A program made the translations under genes and the position numbers. A DNA stretch of 55,198 bases from Fibrobacter sp. UWEL (GTDB lineage Bacteria; Fibrobacterota; Fibrobacteria; Fibrobacterales; Fibrobacteraceae): NCBI RefSeq assembly GCF_900142535.1, contig NZ_FRBE01000022.1, positions 1-55,198 on the forward strand, read 5' to 3'. Below, in pieces: positions 49,927 to 54,940 of the stretch. Within the stretch, counting starts at the first letter, position 1, and every line of letters starts with the position of its first letter. A model generated the notes under the pieces. The model did no database searches. It had not been told where the DNA came from and saw only the letters and a program-made list of their open reading frames with translations.

Positions 49927-50400
49927 TTACTTTTTTGCTTTGGGTTTGCCTTTGGAATTGAGTTTGGGAGCGGGTTTTCCTAGTTTCATAATGCTGGATC
50001 CTGCGTTGTCGGGCTCTACTTTGTAGAGGGTGATGCGGTTGCTCCATTCGGTGCGGGCTTTGCGGTCGATGATGTGCTTGACGTTGCCGTATTCCGGGTT
50101 TCCGCCGCCGTGGATGACGCGGAGGACGGAGAGGCCTGCAATCAGGAGGTCGTCAATGCGGCGTTCTACTGCAGCTGCGGCTTCTTCGGAGGTGTATCCG
50201 TGAAGGTCGATTTCATCTTCGGGAACGGGAAGTTCCCAACTGGAGGGGCTGCGGCGCATTTTCTTGCCGCGGGGACCGCGGTTCTGGGGGCGGGCGGCGG
50301 CTTCTGCTTCTTCGGCCTGCTGGCGAGCCAGATCCTTGTCTTCCATGCGGTGATTCATGATCCATTCCAGCTGGAATTTTTCGTCTTCGTTCATTTCCAT
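49927..50400 (-). CDS. Smr-domain protein
   Basis: About 157 residues from the ATG at 50400. A TTG at 50469 would add 23 residues but has no ribosome-binding site. The N-terminal half is charged (EDKDLARQQAEEAEAAARPQ). The Smr domain (about 70-140) has DEIDLHGYTSEEA, DLLIAGLSVLRVIHGGG and NRITLYKVEPDNAGSS. The DLHG and HGGG motifs are the family's catalytic or binding signature, and Smr domains nick branched DNA or cut RNA. The C-terminal tail is lysine-rich (KLNSKGKPKAKK), fitting nucleic-acid binding. It is stand-alone rather than a MutS2 part. Divergent from the ABC transporter gene. Confidence 0.88.
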   Translation of the reverse strand: MEMNEDEKFQLEWIMNHRMEDKDLARQQAEEAEAAARPQNRGPRGKKMRRSPSSWELPVPEDEIDLHGYTSEEAAAAVERRIDDLLIAGLSVLRVIHGGGNPEYGNVKHIIDRKARTEWSNRITLYKVEPDNAGSSIMKLGKPAPKLNSKGKPKAKK

Positions 50401-50519
50401 TTCATTGCCTGCGCTTGTAATTTGCGGGGTCAAATCTAGTAAAAACGGGTTGGATCCAGCTTTGTTCAACGGTGGATATACCTATATTTCTATCCGTATT
50501 TTTTCTTAGGAATCTCCGT

Positions 50520-52742
50520 ATGATTCGTAATGTTTTTAAGATGGTGATGGCCGCTGCCCTGGCCCTTTCCGCTATGGTCCTGGTGGGCTGCAACGAAAAT
50601 GATCCGCTGGCAAATCGTGTCAATAAGGTCAGTGACCTGGGCAAGAAGAAGGTGGGTGTTCAGATTGGTAACACCGCAGATATTTATGCCTCGGAATATG
50701 GTGGCGATACTGCCAAGATCGATGTGGAACGCTACACCAAGTTGGCTGATGCGGTCCAGGCTCTCAAGCAGGGCAAGATTGACGCGGTGCTGCTGGATGA
50801 CCAGCCGGCCATTTACTTCGTAAAGCAGAATCCTACGCTTCGCGTTCTGGACGAGGCTTTCGTCGAAGAAACTTATGCAGGTGTCATTGCCAAGGGCCGT
50901 GAAGGCTTGCTGGATACCTTCAATGTGGTGCTGAAGGAAATGCACGACAATGGCATTTTCGATTCCTTGATGAACACTTACATCAATGGTACCGGTGAAT
51001 ATCATTATGCTCAGAAGGTAACGGAAGGGGAAAAGTTGGTGCTGGCTACCAACGCTCAGTTCCCGCCCTATGAATACCACGAAGGCGATAAGATTGTCGG
51101 TTTGGAAATTGAACTGGCTTACTACCTGGCCGACAAGATGGGCCGCGTGCTGGAAATCCAGGACATTGAATTTGATGCAGTGATTAATGCTGTAAGTTCT
51201 GGTAAAGCCGATCTTGGTTTGTCTGGTTTTACCGTTACCGAAGAGCGCAAGAAGTCCATTAATTTCACCGACAAGTTGGTGGACAATAAGGTTGTGGTCA
51301 TGGTTCGCAGCGATATCAAGCCCAGCGAACTGGATAACAAGGTTTTTGCGGTTAGCGATCTTGGCAAGAAGAAGGTGGGTGTTCAGATTGGTAATACTGC
51401 CGATATTTATGCTTCCGAATATGGTGGTGATACCAACAAGATTGATGTGGAACGTTACACCAAGTTGGCTGATGCGGTCCAGGCTCTCAAGCAGGGCAAG
51501 ATTGACGCTGTGCTGCTGGATGACCAGCCGGCTATTTATTTCGTAAAGCAGAATCCTACGCTGCGCGTTTTGGATGAAGCTTTCGTTGAAGAAACTTATG
51601 CAGGTGTCATTGCCAAGGGCCGCGAAGGCTTGTTGGATACCTTCAATGTGGTGTTGAAGGAGATGCATGAAAATGGCACCTTCGATTCTTTGATGAACAC
51701 TTACATCAATGGAACCGGTTCTTTCCATTACGCACAAAAGGTGACGGAAGGGGAGAAGTTGGTGCTGGCCACTAACGCCCAGTTCCCGCCCTACGAATAT
51801 CACGAAGGTGATAAGATTGCTGGCCTGGAAATTGAACTGGCTTACTACCTGGCCGACAAGATGGGCCGTGTGCTGGAAATTCAGGACATTGAATTTGATG
51901 CTGTGATTAACGCAGTAAGTTCCGGCAAGGCTGACATTGGTTTGTCTGGCTTTACCGTCACCGAAGAACGCAAGAAGTCCATTAACTTCACCGATAAGCT
52001 GGTGGATAACCGCGTGGTGATTCTGGTCCGTACCGGCATGAAGGAAGCGGATCAGGAAACTTTCGTGGAAAAGTTCCAGAAGAATTTCATTAAGGACAAT
52101 CGCTGGAAGTACATCGCCGAAGGTCTTCGCAATACTTTGATTATCGCCCTTTGCGCAGCTCTCTTGGGTATTCTCATTGGCTTCTTAGTGGCCATGGTCC
52201 GTGTGAACCACGAGTTTAACGGCAAGTACAAAATTGCTAACTGGATTTGCAAGGCTTACCTGGCGGTGATTCGCGGTACGCCTATGATGGTCCAGCTGTT
52301 GATCATCTACTACATCGTTTTTTCTTCTGTGAACATCAATAAGCTGCTGGTGGCAATCATCGCCTTCGGTATTAACTCCGGCGCTTACGTTTCTGAAATT
52401 ATTCGCGGTGGCATTAAGGCTGTGGATCCGGGCCAGATTGAAGCTGGCCGCAGCCTTGGCCTGAAGTTTAAGACGGTGATGATTCATGTGGTTTATCCCC
52501 AGGCTTTCAAGAATTCTCTGCCGGCGTTGACTAACGAATTTATTTCCCTCATTAAGGAAACTTCGATTTGCGGCTACATCGGTTTGACTGATTTGACCCG
52601 CGGCGGCGATATTATCCGAAGCCTCACTTACGAAGCCATGTTCCCGTTGATTTCTGTGGCCATTGTTTACTTCATCATCGTGGCAGGACTTTCCACTTGC
52701 GTTGCTCGCTTGGAAAAGAAACTGAAGAAGAACGAACGCTAA
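50520..52742 (+). CDS. Amino-acid ABC transporter: rearranged duplicated substrate-binding domain fused to permease
   Basis: 740 residues from the ATG at 50520 (AGGA upstream; a TTG at 50472 lacks a signal). Lipobox AMVLVGC anchors the N-terminus. A type-3 solute-binding domain normally runs lobe 1, lobe 2. Here the order is lobe 2 (about 40-165: KKKVGVQIGNTADIY to FDSLMNTYING), lobe 1 (about 170-265: LVLATNAQFPPYEY to NFTDKLVDNK), lobe 2 again (280-405), lobe 1 again (412-505), then a HisM/GlnP-type permease (520-735) with EAGRSLGLKF, the EAA loop contacting the ATPase. So only the central lobe1-lobe2 is contiguous. The repeats differ mainly at third codon positions, which argues against an assembly error. 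The ATPase follows 12 bp later. Probable import of a polar amino acid such as glutamine. Confidence 0.9.
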   Translation: MIRNVFKMVMAAALALSAMVLVGCNENDPLANRVNKVSDLGKKKVGVQIGNTADIYASEYGGDTAKIDVERYTKLADAVQALKQGKIDAVLLDDQPAIYFVKQNPTLRVLDEAFVEETYAGVIAKGREGLLDTFNVVLKEMHDNGIFDSLMNTYINGTGEYHYAQKVTEGEKLVLATNAQFPPYEYHEGDKIVGLEIELAYYLADKMGRVLEIQDIEFDAVINAVSSGKADLGLSGFTVTEERKKSINFTDKLVDNKVVVMVRSDIKPSELDNKVFAVSDLGKKKVGVQIGNTADIYASEYGGDTNKIDVERYTKLADAVQALKQGKIDAVLLDDQPAIYFVKQNPTLRVLDEAFVEETYAGVIAKGREGLLDTFNVVLKEMHENGTFDSLMNTYINGTGSFHYAQKVTEGEKLVLATNAQFPPYEYHEGDKIAGLEIELAYYLADKMGRVLEIQDIEFDAVINAVSSGKADIGLSGFTVTEERKKSINFTDKLVDNRVVILVRTGMKEADQETFVEKFQKNFIKDNRWKYIAEGLRNTLIIALCAALLGILIGFLVAMVRVNHEFNGKYKIANWICKAYLAVIRGTPMMVQLLIIYYIVFSSVNINKLLVAIIAFGINSGAYVSEIIRGGIKAVDPGQIEAGRSLGLKFKTVMIHVVYPQAFKNSLPALTNEFISLIKETSICGYIGLTDLTRGGDIIRSLTYEAMFPLISVAIVYFIIVAGLSTCVARLEKKLKKNER
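50631..52031 (+). repeat. 723-bp in-frame tandem duplication in transporter gene
   Basis: Unit 50631-51308 repeats at 51354-52031, a period of 723 bp or 241 codons. Protein identity is very high, while many codons differ at third positions (for example ACC/ACT, GCC/GCT, TTC/TTT in matching places). Both copies therefore seem to be under selection. Confidence 0.9.
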
Positions 52743-52754
52743 GGAGGATTTGCC

Positions 52755-53498
52755 ATGAGTGAAAAACAAGTTATGATTGAAGTGAAGAATCTCTGCAAGT
52801 CCTACGGCGACAAGACGATTCTGAAAGACATTAACGTGAAGTTCCATAAGGGTGACGTGGTTGCTATTATCGGACCTTCTGGTTGCGGTAAGTCCACGTT
52901 CCTGCGTCAGCTGAATTTGCTGGAAAAGCCCACCAGCGGCGACATTCTGTTGGATGGCAAGAGTATTTTGGATAAGAAGGTTTCAAAGCCTTCTATTCGT
53001 GCCCGCGTCGGCATGGTGTTCCAGCAGTTTAATCTGTTCAAGAATATGACTGCACTGGAAAACATTATGTTTGCGCCTGTAAAGCTGGGCTTGCTGAGCA
53101 AGGCTGAAGGTGAAAAACGCGCCAAGGAACTTTTGGAACGAGTTGGCTTGGCTGATCGTGCCGACCATTATCCCGCACAGCTTTCCGGCGGTCAGCAGCA
53201 GCGTGTGGCCATTGCCCGCGCCGCCGCCATGAATCCCGAAGCCATCCTGTTCGATGAACCTACCAGCGCTTTGGACCCGGAAATGGTGGGCGAAGTCCTG
53301 AAAATCATGAGGGACTTGGCAAACGATGGCATGACCATGCTGGTGGTGACTCACGAAATGGGCTTTGCCCGTGAAGTGGCTAACCGCGTGCTGTTCTTTG
53401 CCGACCAGGTCATCAAGGAAGACGGCACTCCCGCTGAAATCTTTGACAACCCCAAGGATCAGCGTTTGAAGGATTTTTTGGCGGCGATTAAGAAGTAG
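52755..53498 (+). CDS. glnQ: Polar amino-acid ABC transporter ATPase (GlnQ-like)
   Basis: 247 residues, the usual size. It has Walker [10 protein letters not shown] (40-48), Q-loop [15 protein letters not shown], signature [14 protein letters not shown], Walker [18 protein letters not shown] and H-loop VVTHEMGFA. The phrase [10 protein letters not shown] is typical of polar amino-acid (GlnQ/HisP) ATPases. GGAGG lies seven bases before the ATG, 12 bp after the fused transporter gene, so the pair makes a complete importer: two fused chains and two ATPases. Its last 11 bases overlap the end of the minus-strand AbiEii gene. Confidence 0.95.
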
Positions 53499-54360
53499 TG
53501 CGACGGCTAATCTCGCTCACCACGGGTTGCATTTTCTCGCGAATCAGTTGAACAACTACTGGGAATTCAAGAGGTTTATTCCACTTGATTCTTCTGAGAA
53601 AACCCTTCCAAAATCTGTTGCGAATAGGGTCGTTTGCAAAATCATCGGTGAAGGCGATGATGTCTTGCGGAACGGTTGTTTGCCGATTGTCAAACGTGTT
53701 GATGATTGCCTGCTTTAATGTTGTGGAGTCAATTTTTTGATTTGAAAGAATTTGATAGGAGTCAAAGAAATCTTTCATTCTGCTGTTTGCGTTTTCCAAA
53801 ACAACCATTGCGTGAAATTTTTCGGCAAGGACTGTTTCTAGAGAATAGGCAAAAAGGTTTGTTTCGGGAATATTGGACAACAATGCTGGATAGGTTATTC
53901 TGATTGGTTCCGGAGTGACAACATCTCCAAATCCAAGGTCAATAGAAATTCTTTGCACGATGGTATCTAGGTGTGCGAGAAATTGAACTCGAACGCCCTT
54001 GTATTCTTTGTTTACCATGATGTCTTCTGTGGATATGCTTTGAATATCAAAGGTGATCCCGTCTTCTTGGCAGACTTGCGAGCAGATGTTTGTGAATACT
54101 TTTTTTACTTCGGTTTTGTCGGACTTAATTCGCGTTCCAAGAAAATCAATATCTACGGTTGGACGGGATCCGAATTTTTCGTAGGCAAAGAGTAGTGCAC
54201 CGCCTTTTAGGTACAGCGAGGTTGCGTATTTGCTAATGGATACCCTGTACAAGAATCTTTCGTGGATGAAACGGATGAGAATTTGCTGGTAGTTTAGATT
54301 CTCTTTTCTTGTGAGTCCGAGAAGTCTATTACGAATGGATTTGTCCACGAATTTGACCAT
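53488..54360 (-). CDS. abiEii: AbiEii-type nucleotidyltransferase toxin
   Basis: 290 residues. The nucleotidyltransferase fold of AbiEii (MenT-like) toxins is marked by LKGGALL (51-57), [10 protein letters not shown] with Asp70 and Asp72, [10 protein letters not shown] with Asp141, and the LAEKFHAMV motif with Lys181. Family members transfer nucleotides, for MenT to tRNA acceptor ends, and cause abortive phage resistance. All motif residues are present. The upstream antitoxin gene ends one base before. The region is more A/T-rich than its neighbours, as if acquired. The last codons lie in the final 11 bp of glnQ, so the module was probably inserted right against that gene. Confidence 0.93.
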
Positions 54361-54361
54361 A

Positions 54362-54940
54362 CTATAGGATTACCTCCAAATAAGACTTGACGGTTTTTTC
54401 GACGCGCAATTTTTTTGCTGTTTCCAAAAGCTTTGAAATCTTTTTATCGGGACGTTGCAGGTAACTGCGAAATATTTCGGAACTGAGGTCCAAACCGATT
54501 TTATTGCGATACTTGATGGCGTCGCAAACGGATCTTTCTATATCGGTGATGTGGACAGAATGTCCTTCGATGTTTGTTTGCTCAATGCCGAACTCGAATA
54601 GTTTTTCGGACCAGTAATACAGTTCTACTGAAATCGGTGATGATAGAACGACTTTTCGCTTTCTTTCGATTGCGATATTGTATGCGGACGGAATTTGAGT
54701 TGTCAAATTGTGATGAAACCACGCAGAATACATACACAAGACGCCTTTTGGCACAACTTGATTGATGTCAATCATGGTTGCTGCTAGTGTTTCGGTGGAA
54801 GCAAATATTCCTGGACGCAGACGAATCATTTCGCCGGTTCTAACCTTCTGAAGGGCTTGATGGTACTGATACGCACTTGCTGATTCTCGAAGGATAAGCG
54901 TTGGGCTGTCGGGTATTTTTTTATTGTCGTATGTAGCCAT
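54362..54940 (-). CDS. abiEi: AbiEi-family antitoxin / autorepressor
   Basis: 192 residues. The family plan is an N-terminal winged-helix region (about 10-60: SASAYQYHQALQKVRTGEMIRLRPGIF, with the turn G-x-x-x-R-L-R-x-G-I-F), then a larger C-terminal domain with YSAWFHHNLTTQIPSAYNIAI and HITDIERSVCDAIKYRNKIGLD. AbiEi neutralises AbiEii as a type IV antitoxin (no direct contact) and represses its own operon by binding inverted repeats. Fitting that, a perfect 12-bp inverted repeat lies upstream at 54955-54990. -10 TATATT is six bases before the ATG, another leaderless layout. It overlaps nothing and ends one base before abiEii. Confidence 0.9.
   Translation of the reverse strand: MATYDNKKIPDSPTLILRESASAYQYHQALQKVRTGEMIRLRPGIFASTETLAATMIDINQVVPKGVLCMYSAWFHHNLTTQIPSAYNIAIERKRKVVLSSPISVELYYWSEKLFEFGIEQTNIEGHSVHITDIERSVCDAIKYRNKIGLDLSSEIFRSYLQRPDKKISKLLETAKKLRVEKTVKSYLEVIL

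Follow-up and report, generated by a model that had tools for sequence, protein, structure and literature searches.

A lipid-anchored permease chain in Fibrobacter with two tandem, apparently circularly permuted amino-acid-binding domains

The window, a 55,198-nt contig of Fibrobacter sp. UWEL (NZ_FRBE01000022.1), holds a transporter gene that raises the question of how the two lobes of a binding domain pair when they are encoded out of their usual order. A single open reading frame, with its ATG at 50520 and its stop codon ending at 52742, encodes a 740-aa protein in which profile matches place a lobe 2, a lobe 1, a second lobe 2, a second lobe 1, and a permease domain after a lipobox. This order had been proposed from the letters alone; it was borne out by the profile matches, and the same order was found in nine other genomes. 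The sequence-only reading had further proposed a whole domain in the middle with a lone lobe on either side of it, the two either closing together around it or being inert. We favor another answer with considerable confidence, namely, that the protein serves as the membrane chain in a polar amino-acid importer and carries two complete, tandem, circularly permuted type II substrate-binding domains fused to a permease. The positions of the features are given in Table 1.

Table 1. Features of the two-unit transporter gene and its neighbors, in window positions
Feature	Position	Strand	Remarks
Lipoprotein signal peptide and lipobox VGC (residues 22-24; cysteine, Cys24)	50520..50591	+	Sequence MIRNVFKMVMAAALALSAMVLVGC
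Mature N-terminal segment of unit 1, NENDPLANRVNK	50592..50627	+	Motif common to free permuted lipoproteins
Unit 1 lobe 2 and returning C-terminal helices of lobe 1, residues 37-160	50628..50999	+	Profile: C-terminal half of amino-acid SBPs
Unit 1 lobe 1, N-terminal part, residues 166-265, hinge strand VVVMVR at end	51015..51314	+	Profile: N-terminal half of amino-acid SBPs
Unit 1/unit 2 linker, residues 266-277	51315..51350	+	Low model confidence; holds N-terminal motif of free permuted SBPs
Unit 2 lobe 2 and returning helices, residues 278-401	51351..51722	+	Profile match
Unit 2 lobe 1, N-terminal part, residues 407-506, hinge strand VVILVR at end	51738..52037	+	Profile match
Short linker from unit 2 hinge strand to permease	52038..52067	+	
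Permease domain, HEQRo/3TM amino-acid type (BPD_transp_1), residues 517-740	52068..52739	+	PF00528, TIGR01726, fold match 4yms
ATPase subunit gene, GlnQ-like	52755..53498	+	ABC_tran; 12 nt downstream of transporter gene
Divergent smr-domain gene	49927..50469	-	PF01713

The permease domain matched PF00528 and scored 71.8 bits against TIGR01726 (cut-off, 42.2), and its best fold match was the amino-acid ABC transporter 4yms (Z = 19.8). For the ATPase, the best NCBIfam model was PRK09493 (GlnQ) at 338 bits, under the cut-off of 379 for that model. A HEQRo/3TM permease domain with a cognate ATPase marks polar amino-acid uptake (PAAT) ABC transporters, and the window locus has this combination. Against PF00497 (SBP_bac_3; cut-off, 26.4), the window protein scored 195 bits and its free relatives, described below, about 102 to 105 bits. 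A hidden upstream lobe 1 and a wrong start were both excluded, since smr begins at 50469, 51 nt ahead of the ATG, and leaves no space for a missing lobe 1 upstream of the lipobox. An AbiEii-type nucleotidyltransferase gene and an upstream gene for a 192-aa protein without a Pfam match (53488-54940, minus strand) adjoin the transporter operon and possibly form a type IV toxin-antitoxin pair.

The lobe order was also found in proteins with a single unit. Proteins of about 498 aa with a lipobox, lobe 2, lobe 1, and permease are encoded in 26 other genomes of the genus Fibrobacter, and free lipoproteins of 277 to 285 aa, consisting of lobe 2, then lobe 1, then a stop codon, in many. When 84,980 species genomes were scanned, permease fusions and free forms were also found in Lachnospiraceae and other Clostridia, among them Roseburia hominis, R. 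inulinivorans, and Acetitomaculum ruminis. The Fibrobacter one-unit architectures were read directly at the fetched loci, and the others were deduced from match range and frame length. A separate permease gene follows the clostridial free proteins, many of which stop on the hinge strand (TSKQVIIVKK stop). We ruled out that the free proteins are truncated canonical genes, as they stop after a complete lobe 1, many at the hinge strand, and do so in many species. Since these one-unit relatives hold lobe 2-lobe 1 only, and none has the canonical lobe 1-lobe 2 order, the natural unit would be lobe 2-lobe 1, i.e., a whole permuted domain.

The alignments place the exchange of halves precisely. Two NCBIfam models of canonical amino-acid substrate-binding proteins (SBPs) show it: positions 25-125 of TIGR01096, in its N-terminal half, align with the C-terminal part of one free protein (L034), and positions 117-241 of ArtI, in its C-terminal half, with the N-terminal part of a one-unit fusion (L013). 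When unit 1 of the window protein was aligned with the AncQR structure, residues 146-235 of the query fell on 12-102 and residues 7-125 on 109-228. As judged from sequence, each unit is thus a circular permutation, the canonical chain being broken after the first hinge strand and ahead of lobe 2. The canonical order is typical of the solved members of PF00497 and is not demanded by the Pfam model, which finds just the lobe 1 half in the free permuted proteins; no OpuAC family was among the Pfam or NCBIfam matches of these proteins. Other arrangements were also seen. Three tandem units precede the permease in two Fibrobacteraceae loci (L041, 45-3008, plus strand; L097, 1494-4502, plus strand) that are more divergent than the window family; a 945-aa Fibrobacter protein (L099, 639-3476, minus strand) has the permease first and the permuted binding domain after it; and a protein of a distant clostridial genome (L214, 676-2940, plus strand) has the lobe 2-lobe 1-lobe 2-lobe 1-permease order with strongly diverged units.

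The tandem unit of 241 residues, as first proposed, was confirmed with its coordinates: the copies are spaced by 723 nt and are 92% identical over 300 nt. Over 222 codons, units 1 and 2 share 88.6% nucleotide and 95.9% amino-acid identity, with approximately 63 synonymous and 13 nonsynonymous differences. A search of 80 genomes of the genus found the two-unit gene in nine further ones, on separate contigs and at 90 to 99% identity. The two units have diverged independently in each of the 10 genomes (dS, 0.04 to 0.81), with frames open throughout, and the dN/dS ratio, which had been put forward as a check on function, was low for both units in all 10 species (0.02 to 0.09). Both units are, by this measure, under strong purifying selection, and the claim that both copies have long been retained holds. 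The divergence within genes is smaller than that between species, pointing to gene conversion between the units.

The ligand motifs are likewise present twice. T29, D70, and R221 (numbered by the first row of alignment A3) were invariant in 58 permuted sequences and occur in both units of the window protein, the Arg following TEE in lobe 1 and the Asp and Thr lying in lobe 2. In the GlnBP and LAO structures, these positions contact the amino-acid backbone. The best reading is a polar amino-acid importer with two equal putative binding sites per membrane chain.

The order of the lobes, the one-unit relatives, the ligand motifs, and the selection come from sequence, whereas the fold and the pairing of lobes within units come from prediction. 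AlphaFold2, given an alignment of 58 permuted sequences, modeled the free one-unit protein L103 with a mean pLDDT of 90.5 and a pTM of 0.82. The best whole-chain match of this model (residues 10-246) in the PDB was OpuAC (Z = 12.9; 205 residues; 4.2 Å; 13% identity). TmArgBP domain 1 (35% identity) and LAO domain 1, the closest sequence relatives of L103 with solved single domains, matched it at lobe 1 only. For the full window chain, the pLDDT was 79 and the pTM 0.49; the lobes were well predicted, and the unit junction (protein residues 266-272, numbered 243-249 in the model) had a pLDDT below 50. OpuAC fits unit 1 of this model (16-245) at 4.6 Å, whereas canonical ArgBP, which aligns across the units (144-335, 39% identity), superposes at 17 Å, so unit 1 lobe 1 and unit 2 lobe 2 are not placed as one domain. 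The lobes are thus predicted to pair within each unit and not across units, with the single-unit rows in the full-chain alignment leaning toward such pairing for unit 2. Because the units are nearly identical, some cross-unit pairing in vivo would be compatible with the sequence alone.

In a different arrangement, unit 1 lobe 1 and unit 2 lobe 2 would form a normal middle domain, and the outer lobes would close on each other as a nested second site. The middle lobes are contiguous and align to canonical SBPs (173-397 on PF00497; 166-396 on TIGR01096). However, the one-unit relatives, with lobe 2-lobe 1 only, speak against a whole middle domain flanked by lone lobes, and the full-chain model separates the two middle lobes and pairs the outer ones within their units, not with each other. 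The junction points the same way. A canonical hinge takes about 8 to 10 residues from the strand to the DL of lobe 2 (e.g., VRKDSDFRPKYEDL in ArgBP), whereas the junction between units 1 and 2 takes 16 (VRSDIKPSELDNKVFAVSDL) and holds an L-x-N-K-V-F-x-x-x-D-L motif resembling the mature N terminus of one-unit lipoproteins (IPENRVFSINDL, LENHVFHVSDL). To judge from these residues, one permuted domain seems to end at the junction and another to begin there, and we regard the nested arrangement as improbable. The two binding sites suggested by the sequence-only reading are therefore retained in number but not in layout.

Lobe 2 of one protein could instead close on lobe 1 of a second protein. Some SBPs are known to form domain-exchanged dimers, and lobe pairing between two chains is conceivable for the free and one-unit proteins and compatible with their sequences; the monomer model of L103, however, is confident and its inter-lobe placement good (pTM, 0.82), making such an exchange very unlikely. 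Partial domains can arise by truncation, and it had been suggested that the single lobes are inert, which would make them remnants of duplication or truncation beside one working middle domain. This is hard to believe given the equally strong constraint on both units in all 10 species, and it would leave the one-unit relatives without any working domain. A collapsed or mis-joined repeat could also have been suspected, as the copies are 89 to 92% identical and the window is a draft contig. We rejected such an artefact, whose probability we consider negligible: the two-unit gene is present in 10 genomes with open frames and with copies that have diverged independently and to differing degrees, and the one-unit forms keep the identical lobe order.

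On this reading, the N-terminal lipid would anchor the membrane chain, in which the binding units are joined to the permease. The chain of each 241-aa unit would begin at the hinge, build lobe 2, cross to lobe 1, and close with the other hinge strand, and a short linker would bridge the old C and N termini of the canonical fold. With the old termini linked in this way, the lobes would pair inside the unit and form one amino-acid site per unit. Each unit may then capture an amino acid and hand it over to the shared permease, the tether presumably running via the hinge strand and not via the back of lobe 1.

The neighborhood bears on the origin of the gene. The smr gene adjoins all 10 two-unit loci and nearly all free-protein loci of other Fibrobacter genomes; the one-unit permease fusions whose flanks were checked are not beside smr, and no separate free copy was found in the genome of Fibrobacter sp. 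UWEL itself. This common neighbor indicates that, in the two-unit lineage, the binding-domain/permease operon sits at the free-protein locus. We consider the smr locus the probable birthplace of the two-unit gene: such an operon would have come to lie there, and a unit would then have been fused or duplicated, with gene conversion between the units coming later. Both a fusion at the free-protein locus and a replacement plus duplication are possible; with the units homogenized by gene conversion, unit 1 may be a descendant of the free protein or a duplicate of unit 2.

In a tree of 87 units, those of Fibrobacter formed a group (97% bootstrap) with fusions from Lachnospiraceae and with related clostridial units, suggesting horizontal transfer among gut or rumen bacteria. 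A single origin of the permutation, with all non-canonical units together, was rejected (AU test, p = 0.0017), several long branches making the counts of events unsure. Clostridial tandem canonical permease fusions lie among the permuted units on the tree (L168, 3903-6806; L170, 3870-6746; L177, 3897-6761; L178, 3116-5410; all plus strand), which suggests the phase may switch either way. A second break point was seen in clostridial lipoproteins of 268 to 298 aa whose N termini lie some 25 or more residues inside lobe 2 (L216, 1228-2085, minus strand; L218, 1405-2211, minus strand; L221, 654-1550, plus strand; L222, 1402-2220, minus strand). Those at L218, L221, and L222 end just past the first lobe 2 strand, and permease and ATPase genes adjoin them. 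We lean toward the view that the amino-acid SBP family has been permuted repeatedly, at two break points, giving a series of canonical, hinge-permuted, and lobe-2-internal-permuted forms, all serving ABC importers of gut and rumen bacteria. With permutation, the hinge would become the attachment point of the lipid anchor and of the permease tether, and docking or closing behavior may have changed.

Natural circular permutants offer a rare test of how chain order matters in folding and in ligand-induced closing. Here, the permuted form is widespread, canonical, permuted, and tandem relatives occur in the same genera, and the binding domain would be coupled to the permease from the hinge. A caution also follows for domain annotation, which reads permuted proteins as broken lobes.

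The permuted form of the amino-acid SBP family has apparently not been described before. Searches of the open-access literature found no report of it; on circularly permuted amino-acid or solute-binding proteins, and apart from engineered sensors, they turned up TpMglB-2 and the glycine-betaine binders alone. Among the PDB matches listed by the profile searches, none was a permuted amino-acid SBP, all having the opposite order; the end-to-end match to 6h30 comes only from the canonical tandem in that structure. HisJ, GlnH, LAO, and ArgBP (SBP_bac_3, PF00497) represent the sequence family of each half of the window units and share the ligand motifs, but their order is canonical, opposite to that of the window units. 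The glycine-betaine binders, which are circular permutants when compared with other type II SBPs (CPSARST paper, PMC2395249), resemble the window units in having a type II fold with exchanged lobe order, and OpuAC was the best whole-chain match (Z = 12.9 to 13.1). However, OpuAC is a compatible-solute family with 13 to 18% identity to the window-type proteins, which belong to the amino-acid family by sequence and would thus have reached the OpuAC topology separately. TpMglB-2 of Treponema pallidum, a "type Ic" permuted glucose-binding lipoprotein (PMC4990184), is likewise a naturally permuted, lipid-anchored ABC binding protein, but it has a type I fold, a sugar ligand, and another permutation point. 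GlnPQ of Lactococcus, with tandem SBD1-SBD2 fused to the permease (PDB 6h30; PMC8025302), shares with the window protein two tandem amino-acid-binding domains on the permease chain and a separate ATPase, but its domains are canonical (lobe 1-lobe 2) and differ from each other, whereas those of the window protein appear permuted and are nearly identical.
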